DNA from: Saccoglossus kowalevskii
Taxonomy: Eukaryota > Hemichordata > Enteropneusta > Harrimaniidae
DNA: 31,791 nt
Direction: 5' to 3'
Assembly: GCF_000003605.2 (NCBI RefSeq)
Contig: NW_003132853.1
Span: forward strand, 288,675 to 320,465
Positions 5,177 through 31,791 of this stretch are shown in pieces. Below the pieces are notes generated by a model. The model was not told the origin of the DNA. It saw only the letters and a list, made by a program, of their open reading frames with translations, and ran no database searches. Each line of letters begins with the position of its first letter. Positions within the stretch are counted from its first letter, which is position 1. A program made the translations under genes and the position numbers.

Positions 5177-5410
5177 TCACAGCTCGGCATTGTATACTGT
5201 GTTTATGCTAAACACTTGACTACCGTTTACATCACTCGTATGTCCTACATCTTCTTTTTTGGGTTGTCGTCTCCTTGAATAGTTGTTGATTTTCCTGATT
5301 GCATGCCGTCCCAACGTGAGAATGAAGAGTATTAACTCACAAAGTGTTATCAATGAGCAACCAACAAAGAGCCCTAATTGTCCTCCTATGTCACCAAGGA
5401 AGTTACCCGT
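5177..5410 (-). CDS. Exon 18: selectivity filter, TM2, cytoplasmic tail and stop
   Basis: Residues 839-915 and TGA at 5177-5179, 234 nt, acceptor [27 protein letters not shown] is the diagnostic pre-TM2 and filter region (G855-C856-S857). Glu863 follows in LCEL, and TM2 runs to about residue 872. The degenerin-site position is a small residue (Gly844). The tail is 43 residues and basic (RRRQPKK), with no motif I recognise. Confidence 0.94.
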   Translation of the reverse strand, partial: TGNFLGDIGGQLGLFVGCSLITLCELILFILTLGRHAIRKINNYSRRRQPKKEDVGHTSDVNGSQVFSINTVYNAEL

Positions 5411-8400
5411 CTAGAAATAAAACAATATAATTACTGTTAATGGCGGAATTAGCAGGTTTTCAGGTATCCACAACATATAAAAACATTGGAATGCAAAGTC
5501 TTATTTCATACTTAATATTTCATTAATTTAGAATAGAGATAAGTACCGTGTATGCTTCTACCTCACGTATCTCCGTGTAATGGAGGTCTTGATAGTAGAC
5601 CTCTACCATCATTAAATTCAACCTGTGAACATGTTAATTAATATAGAAATATAGCATATATCAACAGCAAATATGTTGTTGGTGTCCAGATAAGACAACG
5701 CACATTTGCGAGGAAAACGGGAAAACACTATGAATTATTTATGTTATTACATGTGATATTAGGCTTCGAAAGCTTCTGAGAAATTAGAGAAATACAGAAT
5801 TTGATTTGTTAGTATTTAATCCATGTTAACATTTTATTGGCATTGGCTGTATATTCTATTGATGTAGTTCTTGCGCCAACTTGCGCTAACTTATAACACT
5901 TTCAAGACGTTCACAGAATAGCCAAAACGCACGTTAAAAACGGTGTAAACAGAATTTTTCATATGTAAATGATTTATATTTCATTAACAACCGACAAAAC
6001 ACACAATAATATATTATTGCTTACAAAGTAGAAACTTCATCCGATATGTTTCTTGTTTTACGATTGAGAGCATGAAGCACATCCAGAAGGTGACCCTATA
6101 ACGGAACAAACGACCTTAATTCAACCAATGATACACCTGTTTGAAATGTCATCGCCTGATGAATACGTCACTTCCTGTGTTTGTGGACACATTGTCACGA
6201 ATAATACACAATGATATACACAGCAGATTGTAGTCTTTTTTCAAACATCAATATAACTGATAATTAGTAATTGCCGGTGAGTAAACTTACCCGATGGGCA
6301 TCCGATGGCCACAGTGATTGTGATGTTCTTGGGTAATAATTAACAGACCTGGAAAATCAAAAATACTTTAGGACAAAACTTAAGAAGAAAAGCATCGAAA
6401 TCAAGCAAACAAGCTTCTGCTATTTGAATTTATATTCCCAAATGTAGTATTTACACTGAAACAATCGCAAAACTCGTTTATAATAATTAGTGTTTATGTT
6501 GGTGGTCACTCTTCATACATGTATATTGAATTCACATTGCATGACACAAAAAAACACAAACATGTATATAAGCCGATACAACATTTGATTGATTATATTA
6601 CCAGACATATCAAGAAAAATTTGCGTCAGAGTCAGTGTTCAAATATGCCCAGTTAAAAAAAATACATAAATATATAAAAAACAACATATTGTCCGAGTAT
6701 ACGTAGGGGACGAGGCGTGTGATTTTATGTGGTGACTCAGTAAACTTCAGTAAAAGCATTTTAGATTGAGACTTTACAATACCGTTTGATGTTTCTGGTG
6801 TAGTGTCAAGCTATGTCGGTTAAGATCTCATTGTTAAGTGGTCAGTGAACGTATTTGTTCATCTTTCGAACTTTACACTAAATTATTAACACTGGACAGA
6901 TTATCGCATGGTGTTTTTATGTACTTGCCTGCACCGTCTTGGACAGCGACACACCAGTAGTCCTCTATAGTACAAGTAATTCATTAGTTGTTGGCATACC
7001 TCTATGACAAAATGTTAAAAGAAATAATTAAACCAACTAATCCAACACATATTAATACGGTTTTTGTATGAACTAAATTATTATATATTATTGAGTACAA
7101 TTTAAACTGTGCTGATACATCTGTCATAACAATAATTCTACCCTACCAACTCTGGTAAGGTGCTTACCTTGGGTGTCATTAAGAATCATACACCTCGGAA
7201 CTCCTTCAATCATGATTGTATCGACGCACCCACAGTAGTACTGTATGTATCTGTTCAAACATGATTTATCGCAAGCCTAATACAAATGAACGAGCATATT
7301 TGATATTTGATAATGATTTAAACATAAACGGACTAGATTGGAGAGGAGAGTAAATAGTATGCCAGATTGGCCATATACCTTGAATAATGTACTAATGACA
7401 TAATTACATGAAAAACAAAAGTATATTCCGAGCTGAAACAAGCAAGAGTTATTGAAGGGAATATTTATGTTATATCAATACTTTACCAGTGTGGTATATT
7501 TGTAGTCACCGTATATGCCATAGAACGTATCCACATTTTCACATTCCCTATTTGGCTCAGGAATAAGTATATCATCTTCCTGTCAAACGAGAATAATTAT
7601 ATGTATAGGAAGTAGTTGAAAACACACATCTGTGTGAGGTATGTAACTGGTACAAACCATACAAACAATGGCCTACATGTGCATATTTGGTTTGTGTCCG
7701 ATAGATTGTATTTTCAATGATTTTGTATGAATTTCAGTTCTTTCAAACTCAATTTCAAAACAGTTACGATCGACTCTGAAATTAAAACAGTTGACAATTG
7801 TATATCTTGCCAGTATGCCAGAGAATAGCTTGAATGGTTTGTCAGTAAACCAATAATAAAAAGTGGCTTGTGACCAATGTTTAATTACTTTGCTAATAAA
7901 ATGTATTGAACATATACCGCCATGTGTATAAATAAACAGGAAGGCTTGCATGTGGGATAGTAGGTAACTTGTTGAACCAGAAATGCAGTCATTTCTTACA
8001 AGTCAAGTATATTCCTCCGGACATTCAGACAAATAGTGTTGGTTTCACTCCAATAGCCAACTCCCATCCATCAATCTATTCATCTCTGCCATTGTTGTGG
8101 GGAGAAAATTGAATAGAACACACCTAGTTGGATGTCCAATTGCAGGGTGGATTTATCAAACTGGTAATGATAATTAAAAAAATATCGTCCTCTACGGATT
8201 TCAATAGTGAATGAATGAAGATATTCTAAAGACAATATTTTCACCTTATATAGCCCAATGGAGGTCTTGCTTCCTGTACGCAGGACCATGCCATGGTCTT
8301 CTGGAAATGGCGTGTCTTCCGGAGAATGTATAGTCATCAGAACCCCTGCATCCTTGCCATAGAAAGTGATGTATTCTGGTTGTTCTACATTCATTGTTAG

Positions 8401-11400
8401 CCGAAGACCTATATGCACATTTAGAAAGTGTAGATTAAATACGAGTAATAACCGTGTGTGTGCGTGGTGTCAATTTTGTTTTTCAAAAAACACATCTTAT
8501 ATACAAGATACCAGAAAAATCTATTTTCAAGAAAAAACAGCATATCCAACCAGATATTTCATATTTCTTTGCTCTCATCTCAACTAAACCTTGTACTGTT
8601 TTTGTAAGCATTGGTAGGATGTTTCTGATAAGCGAATGTTACATAATTATGATAGGAGAGATTGTGCTTACCATAATCACCGCCAGCTTTGGTGGAGTTA
8701 CGTAACGGCACTCCATGCATGCCATGATTGAATGTGAAGCAATTGCCATACTCGTCGTGTTGAAAAGTATGAAAATCTCTAAAATAAGGAAATCCATAAG
8801 TTATTTTCCAATTCCATCTTCCATTTTGAATGAATTAATTTCCAATGATGCTTGACGAGAGGTCACGTGATCACAGCTTTTGTTCACAATACACAGACCT
8901 GGACTTTTTTCCTCAAACCATACATTCTAGGTAAGGTTTTCAAACTTTCGTTTTTTCGTTATCTCAAACATATAGTTACTGTTATGTTTGGATTGATTCG
9001 GCAGACAAAATGTCCACATCATAGCAGTCCGTGAAATGTTATTTTACAAGACCTAGCCATTTTTGGTAATAAGTGTTCTATTAATACCTAATTGCGATAT
9101 GTGCATCTCGTTGACGGTAGTTTATTATTTATTTTTTAGTACTTTTTTGTGGTTTACTAATTAGCATAATGCATATAATTGTGTACATAGGGACATTCGT
9201 TTTTTTTGTAGTCCAGTGAAGCTGTTATGTCATGCCTTACACCTCTCCCGCAAATAATGGTATCTTGCATTAAAGGGGAGCAGATGTTTGGCTTTTGTCA
9301 CGTCGTACATGAGTTTTGAGATCTATGAATGAATTCTGGCGATGAAAACAACTTGTATGTGCTGAAAATTCCCTAAATATCGAGTATGAAATGGGCAGTG
9401 AAGTAGAGGACAAACGTACACTTTGCATGGCATTATTTTGCCTCTAGAGGGCCAGTCAATGACGTCATGCGTGAACACTGATAATTGAACCCATTCATCC
9501 ATTCAATACGTCAATCCCATAGAAATTCTACTATGAAAGGCCTTGTTTACTGACAATTTAAAAGTTGTAACATGGTGTTTGCAAATGTTTCATCTCAAGT
9601 TTCTCACGATGTTAATAGCGAGAAATCGTACAGACTGACAAAAGCCAGACCTTTGCTCACCTTTAAGTGATGCATGTATCAACTGATGCCACTTGTATGG
9701 ACGTTGCTATACAACGATTGATTGGTCAATGTCAGGGAGCTCCCCTTTTTTAGTGACCGTACTGAATTGTATTAACCGGTGATTGATTGTTTTGGTTTAT
9801 ATCAATGTATAATGAGACCAGCCTTAAGCCTTTGGTAGTTTGACTTTGCATCTTTACCTTTTCAATGCAATGCCGTGAATCTTTTGAGTTGAAATGTGAA
9901 AGCTGCCACCATGTTTCGCAGACTTTTCTGAAGCTTCATGTTTTTGAACTTTTATAGTTGTACTGTTTTATTTATACCTAATTTCAATATTTTGAACAAT
10001 ACACAATAATTTTTGTGGCTTTTATGACCAAAACAAGTGTATTGTGTAAGTGTTATTAATCAACGTTCTAACTGCACTTTTTATGTATAAATCTGAGTGG
10101 CTGACTTGCGAAGGCCACGATTAACCTTCAAACACAGCGAGAATGGTCTCTATATTTGTCGAACGATTCCAGGACACGAAGCAGACTGTTCCTGAAGCTG
10201 AGGATTGGATATCCCAGTTTGAATGATTTCGATCAACGAACACGCGCGGATTTAGGAGGAGGCGCGCTTTCAGCCCGCAAAATAAAATAAAATTGACAAA
10301 TCAATTGACAAACCCAGCCAACCGGAGGCCACGTCAGTAGGATCACGCTCCTCCTTACCGAATTTCTAGATCCACCAGTGACGAAGGAATTAAAATCCTG
10401 TGAAGTCTCGCGAAATGCGAGATTTCACAGTGACAAAAACTCCCGGGTTATTTTAGTATTAAGAAGGAAATCGTTTTTTGTTTTGTTTTACAAGTTAGTG
10501 ATCATCGAAAGCACAATTGTTCACACTCTGACAGAGCGCCCTCAATTGAATATTATTATTTGCACATAATGAGTGCCCTCAGATGATGTATACTTTCGTT
10601 TAAGAAATTTACGTCTTCAGAGGGATCATGCTCGAATGTTTTGTTCTTGTTTTCTTAAAGCTGAAGATGTAGCCAGCTATTTTTGTAAGCCGTTAGGTTT
10701 ATTGAACAACCAGCATCCAGATCGACCTTACATTTTAAATCATTTAGGTATTCTCTAAATCGGTCAGGTAATTTATAAGTGATTAGGTCTTAAGTTATTT
10801 ATCATAGATATAAGTGTGACGCTTGGCGCTGCCTTATATAAACATTTACTGCCGAAATTAATGTGTTCGAAAATACAACATAGTTCAGCCAAATATTAAG
10901 TAAAGTATGATAGCCGATTAATTTTAAACGCATGATCTAGGCTTTCAACACTGAAGCTATTCTAAAACCCAAATGTATCTTGACCACAAAACCGACTCTG
11001 ATTCCTTTTCACTACATGCTACAATATCATCTGAGTGGTAAGCAAAAATAATATTATAGCTGGAATATTAACGTTTATGTTCAAGTAAAGAAGCACATAC
11101 AGGTCACTGGTAGCATAGTGGTTGTCGTACCAGACTCATGATCGGTAGACCCAAGTTCAAATCCTAAATTAGGCTGAACATCAAAATGGTCGACCCCTAC
11201 CCTGGGTGAGTGTGCCAATTCCACTGGCCGAGATTCATTCACTAACGAATGCGACTTTGGGGGAACCTTGGTTAAGGTCCGCAGGTGCTTGTGTTCGACC
11301 GGGCCTGGTTGACGCCAGGATAGCGCATTACAAATTGCCATTTGACAGAGAGATGGCCACACAGCCCTGTCATGTAGTCCCAAACATGAATATGACTTCT

Positions 11401-14400
11401 GTGGCAAAATGCACTATGTGTCGTCACTAGCACTTGCAATTTGCACATAAAAAAGTCAGGAGAGACAACAGTGACACTTAAAAAAGAAGCACATTTGTAC
11501 GTTGCAGTGTTTTTTTTCTCCATATTTGGACAGTAATGTTGAAGTTTATAATTACTTTTCCATATCGCATTCATTTCCGTCGAAGCTGCACTCAAGTATA
11601 AGGTCTTCAAGTTGATGCCCCAACACTTTTAACTCATCTTTGGAAAACTTGAGAACTTTTCGCAATGGAGTCCACGACGGGTCTCTGCTGAATGACATGA
11701 ATGCTCGCCAGTCTGGCGGATCTTCTGACTTAACTCGACCATAAAAAGGATCTCTGTAATAACTATCTTCGAATGTCTTGTATACAGTCGGGTCCTCTTC
11801 GATATCAAGGTATGCGTCGTACCACCCAGGCATGAATAACACCTTTTTGTAGTCACGGACCTTAGCTGTAAATTTGAAATGGTCATGTTTGGATATCTAT
11901 ATTATATATGCTGAAGGCTCATTTTATATAACTGGATCAAAATTGCCGATATTTGGAAAAATTGAAAGTGTAACATGAATACATCATTTGCCATGCATTC
12001 TCAGGACACCAAAATAGATTTTCAGAACTTTTTTATTCTTTCATTTTTATCTGAAAAAAGAAAACGCAAGATAAAAAATATTTTACTCACAGCCACTGAC
12101 GTTATATGTACAAGACAATTCGTCCAATGCAATAGTTCCATTGGCTTCCTCTCCACAATCTTTCCAGCCATCGCATACTTGGTATTTGAAGATGCATTTC
12201 GTGCCATTCTCACACATCACATGTGTATCTGGGCATGATTCTACAAAATGAACCGACGCACACATATAAAACACAATATAACATGTTTTTAACACGAAAC
12301 ACGCCAGCACAGGTTAAACCGTCGAGATTTATTGTAGGACATGATCATGATAAACCCCACCCACTTGTACAATGCCATGTCAATTCCGAGGTCGGTTTTA
12401 CGCTCACCGCTTTGATCATAGTGTCAATCCTCATCTAAACCACGGCTGTGGACAATTCCTTATGACAATTTGATCAACTGAAGACGTGAATGGGTGATAC
12501 GATTTGAATTGATATGTTCAATTCCTATGAATAACACATCCAAGGACACGAAGTCTGAGTTCTGAATATTTGTGATAAAAAAGAGTGAATTCCCTATTCC
12601 AGTCTTTTACAATTCTCCTAAATAATGATGTATTCGCATATATAATTGCTATTTATTATTTTCAGTATGTGCTTTGAACTCATGTTTTTGTGACGGGTAG
12701 CTAGTCCGATTTCATAAAACAATTATTATTATAAATATGAGAACCGGGTTTGAACAGCCAGATAGGACATAACTGGGTCATGTACTTTACTATGTATGTT
12801 TATGAGTTACACAACTACTGATTATCAACTCGCATTGTAAATGTGGACATTCTAATTTAGTGGGGGGGGGTCAATTTCACTTTTGCGTAATTTGTCCTGA
12901 GCTCATAATAAATTGTTTCTATATGTCGCGTCCTTTAGCATCGAAGTGTCTCTGCTATGGAAGCGTAATTGACAGCATCAACATATGTAGTGCTTTTATC
13001 CGTATTCATTCGTTACTGCTATTCTCTAATAGGTGATTTTCCGTTCAACTGCGAGATCTCGTGAGTTGCATGAAAGACGCGCGCCGAACGTCTGCCGATT
13101 TGATTTTGAACTAGTTTATTTCGTAGCTCACGTCGAAAAGTCGATCTTTGACAGGCGAATATTGCGTTACCCTTATTTCATTGAAATCGCCTATCATCAA
13201 ATTTGTACAGCACATTATTAAGCATGGAATTCCCCCCCCCGAAATCTTTTCGCGTTTGTCGAATCCCACGCGATGTTTGTCGCCACTACGACGCTATGAC
13301 CTTTTTTTTTTTTTTTTTCGTTCGATTTCACGCATAACGCGGGATCTCGCAATGAACGGAAAATGGTATTGGCAAACGACTGCATAATCTAACATAATCG
13401 TCGATTTGAACTACATCTCTTGTTGTTATGTTGATATTATAGAAGCGCTCCGTCACTAAGAGCGAGGTTCATCATAAGAGTTGAGACGGAGTTACTAGGA
13501 CACATGACAAATCGATTCGATTCGATTGGACCATATATGAATATTAAGAAAATATTACCAGGACAGTCATTTTCATCGGAACCATCGATACAGTCAGCTT
13601 TCTTGTCACATCTGTCATATGTACTTACACACTGTTCATTGTCACACGTGAACTCATTGTCGAAACACGTCCCTGGAATAAGGAATGAAAAGAGAAATCA
13701 TTCTTGCATGTTGTATTGAAATTGTGTTCAATTTTATATGTATAATTAAATAAATTGTCATCAACAGTGTGTCACATTTTCATAGAATTTAAAATTAGTT
13801 TACAACTTTCGACCTAATATGAATATTATGTTCATAATTTTGATTCTGACACTAAAAATTACAGCTTTGAGAAACATTTGGAATTCAGTGTGCATACACT
13901 TACTATGCTCACAGTCTTTCTCGTCCGCATTGTCCACGCAGTCCTGTCTGAAATTACACACCCAGAGACTAGGTATACATAAATCCTGACAAAGGAAACC
14001 ATTGCACAGTCCTGAAAAATAACATAACAATATAGCTAATAAATTATCTATTTAATATTGATTCCATATAGCGACGCATATAACGCGTGTAAATTGTAAA
14101 CACGCGACCATGGTTTTTTTCTGTAAAAGGTCCGTCGGGGTTAACAAATTACGCGCATTTTATATGCCGCATGGAACCATATCGAACGCGACGCAGCTCG
14201 ACGACTATGACACTATAGGAACTAGAGTCGCTATAGAGTGAAGTATCAGGGGGAAATCTTTTCTGGTCTCGGGTTTCTCCAACACGTGTCAGGGGGAAAT
14301 ATCGTCTGTCTCTATATCTCGTCAGCTTGAGGTACCGGACCGGGAAAGTCACTTAAACTTTACAGTCAAATAGACGCACACAGCGAAATACGTTTCAATA

Positions 14401-17400
14401 GCTAGTCATTAGCCACCTCGAGAACGCCTCGAGGCGAACTGCCTCATCGGGGTCTCTGCCCAGCACTGACCCTGACTCTCTCGCTTCGTGGAGCTCTTTC
14501 TCTCTCTCTCTCTCTCTGACCAAGGACTTAGACTGTTTATTACGTATTACAAAACCAATTACAGAGAAGATAAAACACTGTAAGGCGTAACCTTCACACA
14601 TTCAACTTCACATAGCCAATCAAACTGAACACGTCATATCTTTTGATTAATCGTCCACTATATTACTAAGTTAAACTGAAAATACCAACTAGAATTAGCG
14701 GTCAGGATGGCGACGGTTATATCGTGATTAGTTCCAAATCACTGAGTCAACTTCCGTTTAGGACCTCGCATGAGCCTAAATGATGACAGATATCACACAG
14801 CCATTTACTAGTAATCAGCTAAATAAGTCGGTCAACAGATACGCGAAAACTAATTCATGACAGAAGTGTAAGACACAGTTTTGTTCATACCACACGACCA
14901 CGTCTGAAAACTCAGTAGCGCTAAGCAGGTGCCCCACAAGCAAAAAGAAGACGCTACTTTATAGTATAGAAGACATTAAATTAACAGATAGCTTTAAGAA
15001 GTAATTCCCATGAACATTATGCAATACGAATAAAACACGATACGAAACTTACTTTGGACAATGAATGAATGAAGCTCAGCTCCAGCTACTTGTGTCGAAG
15101 ACAAATTTGCGAGTTCTGGATGCGACTTTAACAGAACACAATCTTCAGAAATATAGTTGTACTCAAACGCTTTGCAGTTAGTCAGTGAATTACAGATTTC
15201 TTTGCACGTGTCTTTATCATAAATGTTTGATTTATGCGTTAGGATGTCGGATGTGTGATATTCAACGGTCTGGTTTAAAGGACGTCGTTTGTAGTAGTCT
15301 CCCAAACTTACCACCTGCCCTGTTACAAACATGATATTAAGTCATCAATTAATAATCATTTCGTATAAGTCGCACTTTTTCGGGCGAAGCGCTTTTATGA
15401 CGACGCAATTATGTTCAATTGTTTAGGCATTTTGTCTTTCAAATATATAACTTAGTCGCTATAAAACTATAATGCTATTAACGAACAACTTCAAATCAAA
15501 ACATATATGAACATTACGAATTCTGACATTCCACCCAATTATGTCTAGAAAGAACATTGTCTCTAGAAGGCGCAATTCGTACAAGCAGTTTATATGGCTC
15601 AGACTAAGACCAGAGACAGTCAGCTACTAAAAATATAAATATATAAATATTGTTTGTATGGTAGCAGTGTGCTGTGACCAGCGCCATGTAATAGTTTATC
15701 ACGTATTTATCATCATAAGTACTTGTAAATGCTATGTTTAAATGAGGTTGAGGCAAGGCGTAATGTGGTATCTGTAAGTGGAACTAGCAAACATCTGTTA
15801 TGTCATACTTACAGCAATCCTCTTCATCATTAGGCCGCTTGCAGTCCCGGCGACCATCACATAAACGATTGGGTTGCAGGCACCATTTCCAGGGTGTTTC
15901 ACACGTAAATTCCCTCCCTTCGCATTCTATAAATTATTTGAAATACACATACAAAATCAATAGGCATTGTAAATAAGAGAAAGGGAAAGAGAGAGCCACG
16001 AAACTTGTCTTTCGCCCCTAAAATAGTCACTCCGTTTTCTACCGTCATGGAATAAACTATTCCAAATATTATGGTCACGTAGATCATTTTTTTCTCTTTT
16101 ATTGATGTTATATTCTCTCCCATAATTCCATTGGTCCATGAAGTAGACGCGATAACAAAAGAAAATGAGACATTAGATTAGGGACAAAAACAATTTTTGT
16201 GACTTTTTCACTAGCAACGAGGCGACCAATTGCGTCTTAGTTCTATTCAAAGTTCATTATATTGATGTATCTAAAATTGCCATGAGGGACACAAGCAAGA
16301 GATTTGTTGTATATCATTGATACTACTTGGACAGACAAGATAAAAATATGAGCCAATCTAGTTTGCACTGGGAACAACGAGGCAAAAATAAGGGACAATC
16401 AAGGTTACCACTGAGACAAAAAAAGCAAGAATAAGAGCTAATCTAGTTTGGATTTGCCAAACAAGTCCAAAATGAGGGCTAAACTGTGTTGTACTTGAAT
16501 AAACAAGGCAATAATAAGTAACAATAACAAGGTAGGAATCAACTTGAATCAACAAGGCAAGAATAAGGGCCAATCTGGTTGGACTCTGAGCAACAAGATA
16601 AAAATAAAGGCCAACCTACTTTGCACTTGGACAAAAATATGGGTCAATCGAACTTTGAACTTGGACAAGCAAAGCAAGAATAAGGGCCAATCCAGGTTGC
16701 AGTTTGGTATATGTAATGCCTAATCGACTTCAATTTCAAGAACAGACAAGGCAGGAATGATGGTTAATCTAGTTTGCACTAGGCAACAACAAGGCAAGAA
16801 TAAAGGCCGGAATGGGGGGCGAAATAGTTTTACTTTCTTGAACGTGAACCAACAATATAAGAATGAGGGCTAATTTTAATTTGCAATTGGACCAACATGA
16901 CAAAAATAAGGGCTAATAAAGTTAGCTTTTTCTCCAACAAGGTAAAAATAAAAGTTTTTATGGCCGGGGCTGGGTCGGCAATTTTTTGTAAATGTAGAAA
17001 CAAAATCAATAACCCCCCTGTATACACAATGAACATTATGGTGACCCCCCGGACAAAGACTAAAAATAATGTGACCCCCCCATTTTCAGTTCTTTTTAAA
17101 ACATTTTTATAATTAATTATTAAGTTTAGTTATAGTTAGTTGGTGTTGATTAAAGATATCATCTCGAAATGAATAAATTTGAGAGAGATCCACATATAGT
17201 ACCTATATATGTAATATCAAAGCAATCGGACTTGTGATTTTTAACAAGAATTCGAAAATATCACGTTTTACCAAAAATGACAAAAATATTCATCCAAAAT
17301 AGAGAATTTGAAATTTTGACATGAAATGAACAAATCTGAGAAAGAACCACCCAAGGTACTTGCATATCAAATTTGAAAACATTCTGACTTGCGGTTTCGA

Positions 17401-20400
17401 AGAACAACAACAACAACTGATAATCAGTAATATGAACAGCTTCGCTGATAAAGAATAAGATAAACCAAAAATTGTTATATTTTATATTATTTTATATATA
17501 TTCTATATTACTAATTTTTTTATATCATACTTTATTGTGTTTCCTGTAAATCTCCATACTTTTAGTCATGTGACAGTGATTGCAAACTGTGTACAATCAA
17601 TAGCTTAGAATCTGTCAACCTATTTATTTCCACTTACTAATATTTATTTATTGTGGTATAATTTACACATTTACATTTATATTTTTATCTAATTTATTGT
17701 TCTGTAGTCAATATAAATTATTTGACATATAACCGTCCATACTTTACAGGGTGTTGTCATGTACTGTATTTGTCAACATTTACATTGACATTATTGCAAT
17801 TTATAACTAGTTTATTTCTGTTTACAGTTTATATTTACAAATCACATTCCAGACTTACAGCAACAGAGCGTATTGTGCTCTTTTCACATCTAATGTGTTG
17901 GCATTAATTGTTGCAATATTGTTAATATTCCATTTCACAAGTTTTTAAATCACTTGCTGTCATACGCCATAAATTGTTTATGTGGTGCACGGCAATAAAT
18001 TATAACTAAAATACCGATATTTGCTAGTGTAATAATTTAAAAATGCTATAGAAATACAATGCAGATAATACCAGCCTAGAAAGAAAGTAACAGTTTATAC
18101 TTGCAAAATTCTGACGGTGTGAAGAAAGTATTGCATGTTGTAACTTATAATTTGCAATATTTTATAAATAAGGTGACCCACCTCAAATGCTGTCTGAAAA
18201 AGACTGACCCCCCTCTTGATACTTCAGAAATAATGAGCCTCCCCGGAATTTGCCGGCCCAGCCCCGGCTATAATAACTGATCCGTCCCTTAGACAAACAA
18301 AATAAGTATACGGACGAATCGAGTTTTCAATGCAAGTATGAAGGCTAATCTAACTTTGCACACGAACAGCGAAACAAGTTTATGGGCAAATTTAGTTTGT
18401 ACTTGGACCAACAAGGCGACAATAGAACCCAATCGTTTTTTGCACTTTACCCAACAAGGCAAAAACAAGAGCCAATCTAGTTGGCCACTGGCCTAACAAG
18501 GCAAGACTAATCTTACCGCAGCCATCTTCGTCCTCTCCTTCACTGCAGTGTTGAACGCCATCACATACTAACGATTCATGTATACAGCGCCCATTTATTC
18601 CAGGACCACGACACAGAAATTCTTCACTGCCACATTTAACTGTTGAACAAAAAAAATCTTATTCACAAATGCGTGCAGAATAATTGTATCCTAACGTGTT
18701 GTAATGAAATTAGTCTGTGTTGTTTTGTTCCTGGTGCGATTTCATGTTACATTGACTGAAAGTTTAATTTCTTTGTGCTGCGACTCAAGGCGTTGTTATT
18801 GTTAATTGAGCCATTTTCACGATTCTGAGATAAAAACTTTTTATTTAAATGAACACAATTGAAATACAACTACTGCTTAATAAATAAATACAAAATAATA
18901 TATGGCAATTATAACAAATTGACTATTTTAGCAAATATTCACGCCCAACTTGAACAAAAAATTACGTGTACAATAGTTGCGTTATAAAATTACATAAAAT
19001 TATGTTTTTTTAGCGATTTGTTTATATTTATAATTTATGTACCCTCGTTAAACCAACAATATTTTTATAAACAAATGCAAAAGAACCACAGCATAAATAC
19101 AATGTAGCAAACATAACAATAAAATAAAGCAGCATGTGACATTCACTGTTTTTAAAAAAAATAACGAAAATACATGTATGTTTTGTTGATTAGCGCGTCT
19201 GTTTTGAATTAGGAGCTTATTGATTGGTGTCGTATGCTAATTTTGGTCAAAGAAGCATGACGTCAATTACACGCGCCAATGTAATTCTGCGCGCGTTGGA
19301 GACACACAGACATAATATTGTGTTATTAGAATAATCCTTACGTTCTAGACCAATATTTTCTGTTTAGACTGCGTCTGTTAAATCGTAGACGTGGTCATAG
19401 ATAAAGAGGGCTTGGGGCAATACTCAGTATAAAGCAGTTCCATGTATCACCCGCTATGAATGATTAGTCTCTAAATATATACCATAGACTTGACATAATA
19501 ATATAGGGATTACTATCTTCAATATTATATCAATTGTAATTAAGTAAAAATCTAAGTACCAGTGTGTAGATTTGATGTAATATAATTATATAACATCATA
19601 CTTAAAAAATATAATATATAAATAGAAAATGGTAGAAACGCATAACCAAATGCATGTTAAAAGCTTTTATGGAATGTGTGTATGTGTGATTAAAAAGAAA
19701 ACAAAAAAACAAAACCAATAGATGTAAGAATGTATCGGCAATGTGGTGTAAGTGTGTTTTAAAAATGAGGAACATTTTGTGCGGGTGATAAATATATGAT
19801 TCAGAAAGAACAACATTTCTTAAATTTATTTGATATATTATAACAAAATAATAGTGCTAGATAGTGCAGAGCATAATAATCTTGTTGCATACCAAACTGT
19901 GCAAATTGGGGGGGGGGGGGACCTAGTGCACGTTACCAGTGATATGATATATATTAAATGTTAAAACCCTCCATGGAAAGTAAATATGAGAAAAATATAA
20001 AAATAGCAAACGGAGAGCACATGTGTTCATGGAAACGGGCTAAACATAATTAAATGAGGCAGACAGAGAAAAAGAAAACTATATAAATACATTTAAAACA
20101 CACGCAGAATCAAAAGTACCAGCAAGAATAAAATTGCTTGCAGCCTCACAGCAGTCCAAGCAAGAAGAGCCATACTGTACAAGTACAGTTTGAAATTAGC
20201 ATGGTGATGGCTGCTAAGAAATATTATTATTATTTGCCACAATTAAATTATAATTTATACACATTTTAGGTTATTATAAGTGCTATAGGTTTAAGTACGT
20301 TGTGTGTGTATTCAATCCAAAATAGAAACCACAGCACATAAACATATGATAACATGCAACATATCAAGTTGATCGCTTTTAATACTCAAGGGGATTATAT

Positions 20401-21827
20401 GAACATTTTGTATAATTTTGACGGATATCCAAGATGGCGACCAAGCCACGTGACCGATCCGATTTGGTCGAACATGCAAAATATCAAGTCAATAGGTTAA
20501 AGCATCAATGAAAAACAAATGCGGTCATATTATGCCGAATATCCAAGATGGGCGTGGCTGATCACAAATTGTTTTTTCTCGTAAAAGCGTTGATTATGCT
20601 GCTTGTTAAATATTTAGTTGGTCGGTAAAACATTGGTGAACAGCAATTGACCCACATAGTTCAGCATAATCGACTGATTATTAAATGTTGGCTTGAAGGC
20701 TATGGTGAGTAGTGGAAAACAGAGCCTGCTACCCCATGGATATCGGTTTTAAAAGTAAACCACAATAATATGGCAACCCACAATGCAAATCCGTGTTTAC
20801 ACCCAACTTTTTCTGTTTATAGCATGGAAAGCACCTGAAAAACTGGATGTCCTCTCTTGGTGACAGATGTCTTAATCTGAAGGCAGTCGGACTGAGTTTG
20901 ATATGGTAAAAGCCTCAAATGGTGTTTCTGACCTAACCTTGTGACGCACACTGTTCTTCATCTCTGACATTAAACGCAACACCAGGTAATCTTTGACAGT
21001 TCCAAACACCATCACAGACATGATAGAATTTAATACACGGTCCCTGATCCTCGGTACATAGAAAATCATCGTCCAGACAAGGTGCTGAAAAAGAAAACGA
21101 CAAATACAGAGGCGAGTATTTAACTATATATTTCAGGTTTGGGTAGCAAAAGAATGAGGCTTTTGTTACACTCCACGATGCTGAGCGTTCTAAGGTTCTA
21201 ATCTATTCATTTTATAGTCTGATAGCGTAGATATTGTCAAGGTGACCAAACAATTGGGTTATTGTCGTATTTAACCATATTTGAAAGTACAACAATATTC
21301 CCCGCATTGCAGTAATGACAGATTAATAGGGAAAAGCACGGTTCATAGCTGTATATGGTGGTGAAAGTTGTTTTGGTGACGACTAAGAAATACTTACGAT
21401 AGTATATAAGAGTGTTAATTTCCAGGGAATCCAATAGCGAACTGTATCCGCTTTGTTGAATCATCGAACGTCTGACTTTATTTGTGTTACATAGGGTAAC
21501 AGCAGGAAATGGAAGAGTATTAGCAGATACCAAAATGTTTTCAGTTCGCTTAGGAACCGATAGGTACAGGCTGAGAAGATCTCCAATTTGCCACAAGTAC
21601 ACCGAACATGCTGCACAGAAGATGACAACCCACATGCATTGAGTATATGTGTGAGAACTCTTCGCTGATTTAGGAAGTGCATGTGCACTAGTTTCTAGTG
21701 CGAAACGTCTGGTTATACGTCTCACGGTTGTATCACCATTTTCTGTAGATGGATGATTGTCTTTGGTCATTGCATCAAGAGAGGTACTTGACTTTGATAT
21801 GAATGACCGAGGCATTGATGATTTCAT
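5177..21827 (-). CDS. DEG/ENaC (ASIC-like) cation channel subunit with six LDLa modules and one PAN/apple module in the ectodomain; 18 coding exons
   Basis: The join is 21827-21398, 21084-20938, 18639-18517, 15926-15813, 15319-15053, 14011-13904, 13672-13559, 12240-12091, 11865-11556, 8778-8672, 8408-8245, 7579-7487, 7276-7168, 7001-6929, 6348-6291, 6095-6025, 5622-5547, 5410-5177 (all minus strand). It sums to 2748 nt, 915 residues plus TGA, with phases matching at all 17 junctions. Seen: TM1 about 64-88; FPAVTLCN at 107-114; LDLa at 146-189, 195-233, 235-271, 363-394, 399-433 and 437-478; PAN-like 272-360; [12 protein letters not shown] (567-577) and YGNCFTFN; ten thumb cysteines (691-769); [22 protein letters not shown] before TM2; basic cytoplasmic tail. 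Family knowledge: trimeric plasma-membrane channels, usually Na+-permeable, gated by protons, peptides, force or constitutively. Typical members are about 500-700 residues; the excess here is the 341-residue cassette. Gating stimulus cannot be read from sequence. The start is the first in-frame ATG after a TGA at 21846-21848; an upstream exon is possible. Confidence 0.93.
5547..5622 (-). CDS. Exon 17: pre-TM2 palm strand
   Basis: Residues 813-838, 76 nt, entry phase 2, exit phase 0, acceptor GTTCACAG, donor [26 protein letters not shown] corresponds to the conserved N-x-x-FYE-L-YE strand leading to TM2. Confidence 0.9.
5623..6024 (-). other. Intron 16
   Basis: 402 nt, GTAAGC to TTCACAG. Nothing else recognised. 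Confidence 0.7.
6025..6095 (-). CDS. Exon 16: small palm exon
   Basis: Residues 790-812 plus two bases, 71 nt, entry phase 0, exit phase 2, acceptor CGTTATAG, donor TTT|GTAAGC. It has no strong motif alone. It is required because exon 15 ends in phase 0 and exon 17 needs two extra bases, and its length and position match the usual stretch after WPS. Confidence 0.82.
6291..6348 (-). CDS. Exon 15: thumb-to-palm WPS motif
   Basis: Residues 770-789, 58 nt, entry phase 2, exit phase 0, acceptor TTTTCCAG, donor [26 protein letters not shown] matches the family's C-x-Y...S...WPS signature. Confidence 0.92.
6349..6928 (-). other. Intron 14, GC-AG type
   Basis: 580 nt beginning GCAAGT and ending TTTTCCAG. 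AT-rich, no repeats recognised. Confidence 0.75.
6929..7001 (-). CDS. Exon 14: thumb domain end, with GC-type donor
   Basis: Residues 746-769 plus two bases, 73 nt, entry phase 1, exit phase 2. [10 protein letters not shown] gives cysteines 763, 765 and 769 after Cys748. The splice donor reads CAG|GCAAGT: GC instead of GT, otherwise a strong consensus. Only this cut gives the frame that yields [13 protein letters not shown] in exon 15. Confidence 0.85.
7168..7276 (-). CDS. Exon 13: thumb domain cysteine core
   Basis: Residues 710-745 plus one base, 109 nt, entry phase 0, acceptor TGTATTAG, donor [25 protein letters not shown] and VPRC place cysteines at 711, 715, 724, 726 and 738 in the classic DEG/ENaC order. 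Confidence 0.92.
7487..7579 (-). CDS. Exon 12: start of thumb domain
   Basis: Residues 679-709, 93 nt, phase 0-0, acceptor TTTGACAG, donor CTG|GTAAAG. Contains PEPNREC (Cys691, first thumb cysteine) and [12 protein letters not shown], equivalent to the Y...Y stretch before the second thumb cysteine. Confidence 0.87.
7580..8244 (-). other. Intron 11
   Basis: 665 nt, GTGAAA to TTTGACAG. The exon 11 frame stays open for about 165 nt into it, but family alignment stops at the donor. No repeats recognised. Confidence 0.65.
8245..8408 (-). CDS. Exon 11: palm strands
   Basis: Residues 624-678, 164 nt, entry phase 1, exit phase 0, acceptor GCATATAG. Begins [13 protein letters not shown] and ends [14 protein letters not shown], the usual palm strand arrangement. 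The donor AAG|GTGAAA is weaker than the others but is the one giving the phase exon 12 needs. Confidence 0.85.
8672..8778 (-). CDS. Exon 10: YGNCFTFN segment
   Basis: Residues 588-623, 107 nt, entry phase 2, exit phase 1, acceptor TTATTTTAG, donor [22 protein letters not shown] is the conserved family motif whose Cys601 normally pairs with the post-TM1 cysteine. [11 protein letters not shown] follows, matching the usual AG..xGL stretch across the next junction. Confidence 0.9.
9270..9666. mobile_element. TTAA-flanked MITE with about 35-40 bp inverted ends
   Basis: TTAA at 9270-9273 and 9663-9666 flank inverted ends 9274-9310 and about 9627-9662, sharing AGGKGAGC at the tips and TGGCTTTTGTCA further in. 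The 397-bp unit has no coding capacity. TTAA duplication is the hallmark of piggyBac transposition, so piggyBac-type mobilisation is inferred; the family is not identified. Confidence 0.7.
10246..10376. mobile_element. Possible hAT-like MITE remnant
   Basis: The left side reads GCGGATTTAGGAGGAGGCGC. The right side, inverted, reads GGTGGATCTAG and then GGTAAGGAGGAGCGTG. Ends starting with a GGATYTAG motif resemble hAT termini. The match needs an approximately 10-bp gap, so this is weak. Confidence 0.35.
10398..10430. other. Stem-loop, 14-bp arms
   Basis: CTGTGAAGTCTCGC, loop GAAAT, GCGAGATTTCACAG: 13 of 14 pairs match and the remaining one is a G/T wobble. Located in intron 9; function unknown. 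Confidence 0.7.
11099..11482 (+). mobile_element. tRNA-derived SINE, full length with target-site duplication
   Basis: The head (about 11102-11170) resembles a tRNA. It has a box-A-like TAGCATAGTGG, an anticodon-arm-like CCAGACTCATGATCGG with CAT in the loop position (tRNA-Met-like), and a box-B-like AAGTTCAAATCC. A unique body of about 300 bp follows. A perfect 12-bp duplication AAAGAAGCACAT flanks it at 11087-11098 and 11483-11494, showing retroposition and relative youth. It lies antisense to the host gene in intron 9. The SINE family is not identified. Confidence 0.85.
11556..11865 (-). CDS. Exon 9: channel ectodomain resumes
   Basis: Residues 485-587 plus two bases, 310 nt, entry phase 1, exit phase 2, acceptor TTTACAG, donor AAA|GTAATT. 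Ends in [18 protein letters not shown] and FDGNECD, matching the DEG/ENaC palm/finger segment with its Cys-x6-Cys pair (577, 584). The aromatic and acidic stretch before it shows no module I recognise and probably belongs to the finger region. Confidence 0.88.
12091..12240 (-). CDS. Exon 8: LDLa module 6
   Basis: Residues 435-484, 150 nt, phase 1-1, acceptor TTTTGTAG, donor GCT|GTGAGT. Cysteines are at 437, 444, 450, 457, 463 and 478. CDGWKDC is canonical. The last loop is lengthened ([15 protein letters not shown]), with an NGT glycosylation sequon inside it and another sequon (NVS) just after. Confidence 0.9.
12241..13558 (-). other. Intron 7
   Basis: 1318 nt between LDLa5 and LDLa6. It holds a run of nine G (12862-12870) and the inverted-repeat element at 13036-13364. 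Otherwise nothing recognised. Confidence 0.7.
13036..13364. mobile_element. MITE-like element with inverted termini
   Basis: Left end 13036-13061 and right end 13340-13364 are inverted copies: ATTTTCCGTTCA then TGCGAGATCYCG. The roughly 330-bp interior is CpG-rich with no coding capacity, and holds a run of nine C (13232-13240) and 17 T (13302-13318). No convincing target-site duplication. Confidence 0.65.
13559..13672 (-). CDS. Exon 7: LDLa module 5
   Basis: Residues 397-434, 114 nt, phase 1-1, acceptor TATTCCAG, donor CTG|GTAATA. Cysteines are at 399, 406, 411, 418, 424 and 433. [13 protein letters not shown] is the canonical LDLa calcium-binding signature, the best-preserved of the six. 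Confidence 0.92.
13904..14011 (-). CDS. Exon 6: LDLa module 4
   Basis: Residues 361-396, 108 nt, phase 1-1, acceptor TTTTTCAG, donor GTAAGT. Cysteines are at 363, 368, 372, 379, 385 and 394. [12 protein letters not shown] and [13 protein letters not shown] are typical LDLa. The usual CDG after the fourth cysteine is CNF. Confidence 0.9.
14012..15052 (-). other. Intron 5, with a GC-richer block
   Basis: 1041 nt. The stretch of roughly 14090-14540 is richer in GC and CpG than its surroundings, with TCAGGGGGAAAT twice (near 14247 and 14290), a 7-bp hairpin CCTCGAG-AACGC-CTCGAGG near 14416-14434, and a CT microsatellite at 14500-14518. It may be a solo LTR or other retroelement fragment; no boundaries could be fixed. 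Confidence 0.5.
14500..14518. repeat. CT dinucleotide microsatellite
   Basis: About nine uninterrupted CT units inside intron 5. Confidence 0.85.
15053..15319 (-). CDS. Exon 5: PAN/apple-like module
   Basis: Residues 272-360, 267 nt, phase 1-1, acceptor GTAACAG|GG, donor GTAAGT. The four cysteines are in TCKEIC (310, 314), NCKAFEYNY (320) and EDCVLL (332), the usual core of PAN/apple modules, which bind proteins or carbohydrates. A strong donor-like GTAAGT sits about 9 nt inside the exon. The PAN call rests on cysteine spacing and the C-KAFEY and C-LL motifs, so it is slightly less secure than the LDLa calls. Confidence 0.82.
15320..15812 (-). other. Intron 4
   Basis: 493 nt, GTAAGT to AACAG. 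Nothing beyond AT-rich sequence seen. Confidence 0.7.
15813..15926 (-). CDS. Exon 4: LDLa module 3
   Basis: Residues 234-271, 114 nt, phase 1-1, donor GTAAGT. Cysteines are at 235, 242, 249, 256, 262 and 271. CDGRRDC followed by KRPNDEEDC keeps the acidic calcium-site pattern of LDLa modules. Confidence 0.9.
16330..16950. repeat. Degenerate minisatellite, about 42 bp unit (left block)
   Basis: Repeated variants of AACAAGGCAAGAATAAGGGC then CAATCTAGTTTGCACTTGGA make a unit of about 42 bp with heavy divergence and indels. The array continues at 18290-18510 after a 1.3-kb interruption. Confidence 0.75.
16953..18278. mobile_element. TIR-bounded non-autonomous insertion inside the intron 3 minisatellite
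   Basis: The 29-nt ends 16953-16981 and 18250-18278 are inverted copies with 26 of 29 matches (core GCCGGGGCTGGGYCGGCAA). TGACCCCCC-type motifs lie inside both ends. The interior is AT-rich, non-coding and holds a diverged internal duplication (about 17170-17250 and 17325-17405). Outside the right end, AAGGGACGGATCAGTT on the minus strand resembles hAT termini, so the true boundary may be a little further out. No transposase seen. Confidence 0.65.
18290..18510. repeat. Degenerate minisatellite, about 42 bp unit (right block)
   Basis: Same unit as 16330-16950; for example, copies starting near 18410 are 43 and 42 bp apart. The block ends next to the exon 3 donor at 18511-18516. Confidence 0.75.
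18517..18639 (-). CDS. Exon 3: LDLa module 2
   Basis: Residues 193-233, 123 nt, phase 1-1, acceptor TTCAACAG, donor GCG|GTAAGA. Cysteines are at 195, 202, 211, 218, 224 and 233. It contains [14 protein letters not shown] and an acidic EGEDEDGC end. The calcium-cage Asp before the fifth cysteine is His223. The donor lies only a few bases from a minisatellite in intron 3. Confidence 0.88.
18640..20937 (-). other. Intron 2
   Basis: 2298 nt, GTTAGG to CAACAG. Very AT-rich, with a run of 13 G at 19908-19920 and a two-copy diverged repeat at 20351-20560. No extra LDLa exon could be found in it. Confidence 0.7.
20351..20560. repeat. Diverged tandem dimer, about 115-120 bp unit
   Basis: AACATGCAAMATATCAAGT starts at 20351 and 20471, and ATATCCAAGATGG occurs at 20425 and 20539. 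The intervening sequence is diverged. Probably part of an old dispersed repeat in intron 2. Confidence 0.55.
20938..21084 (-). CDS. Exon 2: LDLa module 1
   Basis: Residues 144-192, 147 nt, phase 1-1, acceptor TTTTTCAG, donor G|GTTAGG. Six LDLa cysteines are at 146, 153, 160, 167, 173 and 189. The C-x6-C-x6-C-x6-C-x5-C spacing and VCDG fit LDLa, but the usual DC is NC (Asn172). The last loop is extended ([16 protein letters not shown]), so calcium binding is uncertain. Confidence 0.85.
21085..21397 (-). other. Intron 1
   Basis: 313 nt, GTAAGT to TTTTTCAG, between the TM1 exon and LDLa1. It is the 5' boundary of the inserted module cassette. No repeats recognised. Confidence 0.75.
21398..21827 (-). 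CDS. Exon 1: N-terminus, TM1 and post-TM1 motif
   Basis: Residues 1-143 plus one base, with donor GTAAGT after ...TATC. The cytoplasmic part holds [13 protein letters not shown], the position of the DEG/ENaC His-Gly gating motif, but with Ala after His49. TM1 covers roughly [17 protein letters not shown] onwards, followed by [17 protein letters not shown], a strong family signature whose Cys113 is the first conserved ectodomain cysteine. The frame stays open upstream only to 21845; directly before it lies an in-frame TGA. The codon at 21843-21845 is GTG, so ATG at 21827 is the first usable start. Its Kozak context is weak; ATGs at residues 5 and 20 are alternatives. Confidence 0.9.
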
Positions 21828-21848
21828 TGATACAGTCTTAACCACTCA

Positions 21849-23913
21849 AATATTTCTATATATGGAAGTAGACTCAACTTTCAACATAACCATATCCATT
21901 AATACCAGTCACTGTAATGTGAAGCACAGATTATCATAGTTAAATGTGATTATATAGAATCAAACCTGTTTGGATATATCTTCTGAATATCATCTAATTA
22001 CAGTCACTTATTTGAGGTATCGTTGATTTTCTTGGATTTTCTTTCCAGTGTTTAAGATATAATGACTGAACTGGCAGTGACTGTTAGTTAGGTTAAGTTA
22101 GTCCTTCGTTTCCATATGTGTCACGTGAAAGACCAATTTCCTAAAACCCCTATAATATTTCTGACTGACAATTATAGGATACACTCAGTGTTACTAAGTT
22201 CATGTACATTTGTCCCGCCTGTTTTAAGAACCTGTTTTTATTTTACAGAAGTGTCTTCCAGTTAACATCTTTTACGAGCCATTATTCCGTGATAACGCAA
22301 GACATTAAACAATAACATCTCGCATTGTGGCGCTATGGTAGTGGTTTAGATGGGGGTTCCAATGAGGTAATTACAGTATAGCAACTACTAAATATTACAA
22401 GAAAATAATATGCTAATGAGGCAGTGCAGGCTGCCAATGAAATGTTAGTATCCATTGTTATGTAAATATAGCAATTTAGGGACAAATCATTCATGTAAGC
22501 AAACAGTGCTGGTTTGATTAATGTGTCACAAACACTGGGAGATATGTTAACTATCTATAGTGATTCATCTACGTTTAGAAAGATGTTTTCGATTGTGAAA
22601 AAAAAATAAAAGAGACGTTTTTATTATTTGTTCATTGAATATTCTCTTGAAGCAACAGAAATGTTAGCAAAATAAATAAATGTAGACAATTCAGTGATTT
22701 TAAAGGTTTTTTATTTCTACATATTTACAAACAGAAAATCACATTTAACACTGCGTCAAATGCGATTGCTGCAAGTAGTTGTCAACATATTGGGTATATT
22801 TGGTCGGAAGATTCAGTTGACGTACCTTCAAAATAAAAAATAGTTTTGTTACCAATGGAACACCTGACCATTGAGAATGTTTATATGAACTGATTAGAAG
22901 GAGCCCTCAGTGGATGTTAGGTAGAGAGCGTGACATTGTGACAAACAAAGTACACAAATATCCAGTAATCCGTATGTTATTTTACAGACAATCGTTTAAC
23001 TCAAAGCATAGTTCAGTGTGTCTTTGCCATGTTTTAGAATACATTTTGAAAATAAACTTTAAAATCAAGGCCATGAATGAAATGTTACTTCATACAATGA
23101 ATATGAAAAAATGTTGTTCAGTTAATGAAACTAACAGACTGAATGTATGTATAAATTGTGTCAACAGACAAGGTTGAATATATTAATGTATTTCTATAAA
23201 TGCAGAAGCCATGTGCAATACAGAATATTTTATAATAATAAATACACAGATTAGGACATACCGAATTGATCAGAAGTTCGGCCGCTCTATCACCACGCCA
23301 TCATAGTTTCCGGAAGTTGTCAATTCAATATCACACCTGGTGAATTCTAGAAGTAAGGGTGAACTACATTTGACCGAATTACTTTTAAAAGCTATTTCAA
23401 ATCACTGTTCCCACAAAAAAAAAAATTATCCCAACCAGCGTATCTACAAAAAATAAAACTTTGCTAATCTCTCTGTCTATTTTTACACATAACATATCTA
23501 CATAAGTTTAGCTTAGCAAGAGATTAATGCAATAATATGTTTTATTCGTACCGTGCTTTTCAAATGTGGCAGGATACACTTTTATACAAAGGTGTGAAAC
23601 CCTTCACTTAGGGCGAAACATAACAAATGTATAATAATATGTTTCATGTATTTTAAAAAGTATATTAAATGTGCGGGCGAGAAGATATTGAATTGTAATT
23701 GAAAAAGCAATTCAATTCAACAACGGCGGCATGCTTCAATGACAGAAAAGCACGCATGGAATTTACTGCTATTTTCGTCGGGTTGTTATAAAATGTAAAA
23801 TGTAAAATCATGCCCACAGTTGTAAGATGTTGTTTTTCATCACAACACGCCTTGATTTACGAACAATAACACATAGATAAATAAATGAATAAACAAACAA
23901 ACGAACAAAGTTT
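21849..23913. other. Intergenic, upstream of the channel gene
   Basis: Probably holds the promoter and any 5' non-coding exon, but no core promoter could be assigned. A TATATA-like stretch at about 21857-21863 lies too close to the ATG to be convincing. The frame at 22914-23177 shows no similarity I recognise. Confidence 0.45.
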
Positions 23914-23914
23914 A

Positions 23915-23996
<82 letters not shown>
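23914..23996. repeat. AAAT tetranucleotide microsatellite
   Basis: About 20 uninterrupted AAAT units, followed to about 24053 by degenerate AAAT/AATT repeats. Confidence 0.95.
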
Positions 23997-23998
<2 letters not shown>

Positions 23999-24053
23999 AA
24001 ATAGTGAATGAATTAATAAATTAATTAATTAATTAATAAATTAATAAATAAAT

Positions 24054-31353: not shown

Positions 31354-31791
31354 GTTGACAGTACACATGGCAGTACGTTTACCTTGGGGGTTGACAGTAC
31401 ACATGGCAGTAAGTTTACCTTGGGGGTTGACAGTACACATGGCAGTAAGTTTACCTTGGGGGTTGACAGTACACATGGCAGTAAGTTTACCTTGGGGGTT
31501 GACAGTACACATGGCAGTAAGTTTACCTTGGGGGTTGACGGTACACATGGCAGTAAGTTTACCTTGGGGGTTGACGGTACACATGGCAGTAAGTTTACCT
31601 TGGGGGTTGACGGTACACATGGCAGTACGTTTACCTTGGGGGTTGACAGTACACATGGCAGTAAGTTTACCTTGGGGGTTGACAGTACACATGGCAGTAA
31701 GTTTACCTTGGGGGTTGACGGTACACATGGCAGTACGTTTACCTTGGGGGTTGACAGGTACACATGGCAGTAAGTTTACCTTGGGGGTTGA
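31354..31791. repeat. 36-bp minisatellite, at least 12 copies, running off the window
   Basis: Unit GTTGACAGTACACATGGCAG then TAAGTTTACCTTGGGG. Eleven copies are exactly 36 bp; the twelfth (31750-31786) has one extra G, and a new copy starts at 31787. Only two positions vary: GACAG/GACGG (GACGG in copies 6, 7, 8, 11) and TAAG/TACG (TACG in copies 1, 8, 11). Homogeneity implies recent expansion. Because 36 is a multiple of three, long frames open on both strands; these are not evidence of coding. Confidence 0.95.

Follow-up and report, generated by a model that had tools for sequence, protein, structure and literature searches.

A predicted DEG/ENaC channel subunit from Saccoglossus kowalevskii with an LDLa3-PAN-LDLa3 cassette in the finger of its ectodomain

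An 18-exon gene and its surroundings

We analysed a window of 31,791 nucleotides from the hemichordate Saccoglossus kowalevskii (contig NW_003132853.1), reading the gene region in full on its minus strand and taking the open reading frames of the window from both strands. The channel gene lies on the minus strand, with its ATG at 21827 and its stop codon ending at 5177. Rebuilding it exon by exon with a scripted check yielded a spliced open reading frame of 18 exons and 2748 nt, which encodes 915 amino acids plus the stop in one frame (Table 1). No other ATG precedes it in its open frame, which starts at 21845 after a stop codon. All 17 introns have AG acceptors and 16 of them have GT donors; the remaining one, the intron following exon 14, has a GC donor (AG/GCAAGT, 6923-6930), GC-AG being a rare but known donor class. 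The original prediction of one continuous 18-exon frame holds, with the exon count and boundaries right and the splice sites proper throughout.

Table 1. Exons of the predicted channel gene, with coordinates in the window
Exon	Coordinates	Strand	Content	Score or basis
1	21398..21827	-	N-terminus with HA for HG, TM1, palm strand FPAVTLC, finger helix alpha-1; ends in phase 1	Splice model; ASC 58.1 bits (profile 1-87); alignments to ASIC, ENaC gamma and FaNaC1
2	20938..21084	-	LDLa module 1, phase 1-1, six Cys	16.4 bits alone (below cut-off)
3	18517..18639	-	LDLa module 2, phase 1-1	36.9 bits
4	15813..15926	-	LDLa module 3, phase 1-1; Ca-ligand side-chain positions 4/4	27.9 bits
5	15053..15319	-	PAN module, phase 1-1, four Cys	PAN_1 29.0 bits, 9.7e-7
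6	13904..14011	-	LDLa module 4, phase 1-1	33.4 bits
7	13559..13672	-	LDLa module 5, phase 1-1; Ca-ligand side-chain positions 4/4	39.2 bits
8	12091..12240	-	LDLa module 6, phase 1-1; Ca-ligand side-chain positions 4/4	20.7 bits alone (below cut-off)
9	11556..11865	-	Remaining finger and beginning of next palm strand; starts in phase 1	Splice model, ASC match; subdomain by ASIC alignment and general family layout
10	8672..8778	-	Palm / beta-ball	Splice model, alignments; subdomain by general family layout
11	8245..8408	-	Beta-ball / palm	Splice model, alignments; subdomain by general family layout
12	7487..7579	-	Thumb start, LIPEPNREC	Splice model, alignments; subdomain by general family layout
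13	7168..7276	-	Cysteine-rich thumb	Splice model, alignments; subdomain by general family layout
14	6929..7001	-	Cysteine-rich thumb; GC-AG intron next	Splice model, alignments; subdomain by general family layout
15	6291..6348	-	Thumb-palm strand	Splice model, alignments; subdomain by general family layout
16	6025..6095	-	Knuckle/palm	Splice model, alignments; subdomain by general family layout
17	5547..5622	-	Palm to wrist	Splice model, alignments; subdomain by general family layout
18	5177..5410	-	Pore segment (G-x-S filter), TM2, cytosolic tail, stop	Splice model, alignment, hydropathy

Ten open reading frames outside the gene, chosen from 101, gave no Pfam match at the cut-off and three weak ones, and both Rfam and ARAGORN returned zero hits in the window. 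The window also has a long ATAA microsatellite of about 45 copies (23873-24053) and a 36-bp minisatellite of about 12 copies with 97% matches (31354-31791), which is open on both strands and reaches the end of the window. Intron 3 contains degenerate repeats of about 40-45 bp (16298-16935 and 18393-18494), accompanied by inverted arms at 16953-16984 and 18247-18278. Intron 9 harbors 31-nt inverted repeats (9270-9666) that are 87% complementary, lie 335 nt apart and start with TTAAAGGGG; this could be a small non-autonomous transposon. The same intron has, at about 11096-11330, a stretch that resembles a tRNA-derived SINE and includes a B-box-like GTTCAAATCC, which was recognized by eye only, ARAGORN and Rfam being blank for it.

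The channel core and the inserted modules

The protein predicted from this gene is a subunit of the DEG/ENaC (ASC) superfamily. A Pfam search with the whole protein recovers the ASC profile with an E-value of 2.2e-77 (261.5 bits against a cut-off of 23.6), and by exon the match falls into two parts, one in exon 1 (58.1 bits, profile positions 1-87) and the other in exons 9-18 (223.2 bits, positions 138-455). Hydropathy windows exceed 1.6 only within residues 64-85 and 848-876, which gives two membrane segments flanking a cysteine-rich ectodomain. The FPAVTxC-type motif occurs a single time among the 1064 six-frame segments of the window, and the pore reads GLFVGCS as against GLFIGAS in ASIC, with the GCS at residues 855-857 aligned to GAS. 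The architecture that had been proposed for this gene, from TM1 to a canonical DEG/ENaC thumb, filter and TM2, is right.

When the PDB was searched with the cassette removed, ASIC2 (162 bits), ASIC1 (154 bits) and gamma ENaC (151 bits) were among the best of the 32 matches listed; the same query gave 126 bits with FaNaC1 and 42 bits with Pickpocket 26. The ENaC subfamily model TIGR00859 scores 264.4 bits, under its curated cut-off of 428, and the degenerin subfamily model TIGR00867 scores 242.6 bits, under its curated cut-off of 598.45; as both models remain well under their cut-offs, the protein is a member of the superfamily without placement in a subfamily. Of the 54 cysteines between the first palm strand and the thumb, 14 belong to the channel, 36 to LDLa modules and 4 to the PAN module, so that each part can close its own disulfides. 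The 14 in the channel ectodomain are the number needed for the seven conserved disulfides of the family, and an ENaC structure paper describes bridges 1-7 as conserved across the family (PMC6197857). A departure from the familiar pattern is seen at residues 49-50 (21678-21683), where, by alignment to gamma ENaC, ASIC5 and FaNaC1, the HG gating motif reads HA; the HG motif is described as highly conserved and implicated in gating (PMC10148893).

The cassette comprises residues 144-484 (341 aa) in the order LDLa3-PAN-LDLa3, its length and module order being as originally predicted. With the whole protein as query, Pfam matches Ldl_recept_a in six stretches (4.2e-29) and PAN_1 at 1e-4, with 22.5 bits against a cut-off of 21.4, which exon 5 alone also exceeds (Table 1). 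Together with the ASC match, this domain search upholds the six LDLa modules and the PAN-like module. Searched as single exons, four of the six LDLa modules score above the cut-off of 24.1 bits; the two that score below it, in exons 2 and 8, have additional residues ahead of their last cysteine. All six modules have six cysteines, and by the usual calcium-ligand rule three of them have the full set of ligand positions and the other three keep three of the four. Five N-glycosylation sequons lie within the cassette. ASC, LDLa and PAN are the only Pfam domains found, and Pfam detects no EGF or propeller domain in the 915-residue protein.

We also searched the 1064 six-frame segments of the window (each of at least 20 residues) with a profile made from the six LDLa exons, and recovered six segments above the inclusion threshold, all of them the known modules; the next best segment had an E-value of 0.27, and thus no further LDLa module was found in the window by this profile. 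Since the profile was made from the same exons, its hits to them are not independent proof of their identity, for which Pfam is the independent source. The cassette finds its top PDB matches in proteins of the LDL-receptor family (megalin/LRP2, LDLR and VLDLR). The PAN exon has weak PDB matches only (seven listed, with E-values of 0.022 or worse), among micronemal proteins, plasma kallikrein and Kelch-domain entries, which are known to bear PAN/apple domains; a single-sequence AlphaFold2 model of this exon was uninformative (pLDDT 42). We are close to certain of the predicted architecture taken by itself, namely a DEG/ENaC subunit with an LDLa3-PAN-LDLa3 cassette in its ectodomain, as read from the gene sequence.

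Entry point and assembly of the cassette

The original prediction had the cassette enter the finger just after FPAVTLCN (residues 107-114). The entry into the finger stands; the exact point does not, as the junction between exon 1 and the cassette lies about 29 residues later, at 143/144. Among the alignments listed a single one, that to ASIC2, crosses this junction, with the end of exon 1 lying on ASIC2 GELLALLDVNLQIPDP; the alignments to ASIC1, ASIC5, ENaC gamma and FaNaC1 end at residues 118-127, i.e., 16-25 residues before it. The ASC profile is covered over positions 1-87 before the cassette and 138-455 after it, and the cassette accordingly falls in the 50 profile positions between the two. 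The SKN-xxx-H motif of ASICs is described as lying in a short loop and the adjoining helix alpha-1 (PMC10507113), and the SKN of ASIC1 is aligned with residues 124-126 of the hemichordate protein. The position of SKN at the loop and helix alpha-1, taken with the ASIC2 alignment that continues through the junction, points to entry at or just past alpha-1. It is thus reasonable to place the predicted insertion in the finger at or just after helix alpha-1, by the alpha-1/alpha-2 segment.

The exon structure bears on how the cassette came to be there. Each of its seven exons, with lengths of 147, 123, 114, 267, 108, 114 and 150 nt, encodes a single module and is of phase 1-1, and all eight junctions from exon 1 through exon 9 are in phase 1. 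Among the nine channel exons 9-17, one alone (exon 12) has a length that is a multiple of three. Symmetric exons that each encode one module are the classic mark of exon shuffling, and the run of seven symmetric phase 1-1 module exons between phase-1 boundaries looks like the outcome of such a process. From this arrangement we infer that the cassette probably arose when module exons of phase 1-1 were shuffled into an intron of phase 1 in an ordinary channel gene.

Possible function and relation to known systems

The use that we favour for the cassette, with a probability of roughly 0.45, is to anchor the channel outside the cell as an in-built part of it, possibly with coupling to the finger. 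The subunit would assemble as a trimer, and the cassettes would project from its outer top edge and bind a protein or matrix partner. Their primary role would be the anchoring or clustering of the channel at a contact site, with the cassette acting as a built-in auxiliary subunit. Coupling could be a secondary role, in which a pull on the cassette or binding to it would shift finger helices alpha-1/alpha-2, and hence the thumb and the pore; skipping of module exons could tune this. The earlier suggestion that a ligand or matrix contact is coupled to gating via the cassette may likewise apply.

The in-built anchor is favoured by the presence of LDLa modules in channel auxiliary proteins together with the input sites at the same corner of the finger. 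Neto, SOL-2 and LEV-10 are channel auxiliary proteins with LDLa modules in their ectodomains (PMC9083331). In FaNaC1, finger helices alpha-1 to alpha-3 make up the agonist pocket together with neighbouring elements, and modulatory sites of ENaC as well as the matrix tether sites proposed for mechanosensitive members are said to lie at that finger corner too (PMC11026163). Further, the GRIP gating domain occupies the alpha-1/alpha-2 segment of ENaC (PMC6197857). The coincidence of GRIP, the FMRFamide pocket and the proposed tether site at alpha-1 to alpha-3 marks this as the gating-input corner of the family, which supports anchoring and coupling. Matrix tethering of ENaC through N-glycans, proposed for the alpha subunit (PMC7958617), likewise speaks for the model, as do the five sequons of the cassette. 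On the other side, the shear-tether asparagines reported for ENaC lie in the palm and knuckle, outside the alpha-1/alpha-2 segment (PMC7958617), a location that counts against the model. Clustering does not require the LDLa of LEV-10 (PMC9083331), which argues against a simple scaffold role for LDLa modules. The single alignment (to ASIC2) across the junction and the HA in place of HG were also counted against it.

An alternative that we consider unlikely is that the cassette is a ligand-binding domain in the manner of a grafted receptor head, with a soluble ligand on the LDLa or PAN modules gating the pore directly. LDLa modules of the LDL-receptor family bind protein ligands, and the cassette has its top PDB matches in that family; moreover, the insert adjoins the helices of the FaNaC1 neuropeptide pocket (PMC11026163). 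However, there is no known ligand, and the gating signal would need to cross flexible multi-module linkers.

Alternatively, the cassette might be made optional by alternative splicing, with an ordinary channel as the main product and the module-bearing forms minor or tissue-specific; a truncated form with TM1 and the cassette that stops after exon 8 is also conceivable under this reading. A direct join of exon 1 to exon 9 is in frame and gives a 574-residue full ASC protein, and of the 128 subsets of the cassette exons 108 remain open as a single frame. Translation continued past the exon 8 donor ends at a stop two codons on, beyond which lies an AATAAA at 12037 (within 12032-12090). However, by estimate rather than computation, an AATAAA in an AT-rich intron of 225 bp is not unusual by chance, 20 of the 128 subsets do not remain open, and all seven exons retain their frames, cysteines and splice sites, which suggests that they are used. 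We hold an optional cassette of this kind to be quite unlikely. As an observation in its own right, read-through of exon 8 offers a possible early end, with a TM1-cassette product lacking TM2.

It is improbable, in our judgement, that the cassette is an enlarged GRIP, which would keep the channel inhibited until a protease cuts or removes it. The insert, by the ASIC2 alignment, would share the alpha-1/alpha-2 region with the GRIP of ENaC (PMC6197857), and there is a dibasic KRR at residue 282 in the PAN exon. Against this, no furin-like RxxR site is present in residues 144-484, the four in the protein being at 37, 764, 767 and 801; further, the families in the insert are unrelated to GRIP, whose stretches the ENaC structure paper calls unique to ENaC (PMC6197857).

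Finally, nested genes do occur, and exons 2-8 could in principle be a separate secreted or membrane gene lying within the channel gene and wrongly joined to it, for which one could cite a 31-codon open reading frame in intron 1 (21215-21307) whose start is mildly hydrophobic and the AATAAA of intron 8, but we rejected this as highly improbable: introns 1 and 8, of 313 and 225 bp, leave little room for the ends of such a gene, the cassette and channel exons lie on the same strand with all eight exon 1-9 junctions in phase 1, and intron 1 holds no convincing candidate for a signal-peptide exon, the sole GTRAG donor there being that of exon 1 itself and the 31-codon frame having none.

Returning to the favoured anchor, how DEG/ENaC channels receive input from the matrix or from partners is still poorly understood, and knowledge of the tethers is described as scarce (PMC7958617). 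Binding modules built into the subunit would make this question testable within a single polypeptide. The locus also suggests that large inserts are tolerated in one segment of the finger and that this segment acts as an input port in evolution. A broader generalization, which we regard as doubtful, is that the finger alpha-1/alpha-2 segment of DEG/ENaC channels serves generally as a plug-in position for gating inputs, taking GRIP in ENaC and exon-shuffled receptor modules here; the subunit would then be a channel fused to an auxiliary subunit of its own, and the inclusion or skipping of single-module exons could re-set both its partner and its gating.

Judged from titles and abstract openings, no LDLa-bearing DEG/ENaC channel was found among the papers listed on DEG/ENaC channels with LDLa or inserts, on lophotrochozoan channels, and on LDLa auxiliary proteins and tethers. 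The term LDL has zero occurrences in the main text of PMC10507113, PMC9822975, PMC9949801, PMC10148893 and PMC9234716. The layout is thus new relative to the searched literature alone, and similar predicted proteins may well exist in public databases. One scan of viral contigs gave no relatives, as expected for an animal gene.

Among the known systems, ASIC1 and ASIC2 (154 and 162 bits) align with the predicted subunit over TM1, the palm, the thumb, the G-x-S pore and TM2, and the lysine aligned with the K211 region of ASIC is kept. In contrast, the ASIC HG motif is HA here, the wrist histidines that precede the FPAVTLC strand are not kept in the alignment to ASIC1, and ASICs are not known to carry LDLa or PAN modules. 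The LDL-receptor family has the LDLa module in common with the subunit; here, however, the modules are encoded by single-module exons within a channel, with no EGF or propeller domain found by Pfam. ENaC (151 bits for the gamma subunit) probably resembles it in having an extra gating-linked segment between finger helices alpha-1 and alpha-2 (PMC6197857), but the insert in the hemichordate protein is made of LDLa and PAN modules, spans 341 residues and lacks RxxR, and TIGR00859 stays under its cut-off. The peptide-gated FaNaC channels share the finger region alpha-1 to alpha-3 as a place of ligand input, but the PDB score is lower (126 bits), and the passages considered on FaNaC mention no grafted modules (PMC11026163). 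Neto, SOL-2 and LEV-10 are type I proteins in their own right and carry CUB domains (PMC9083331), whereas in the predicted hemichordate channel the modules lie inside the pore subunit.
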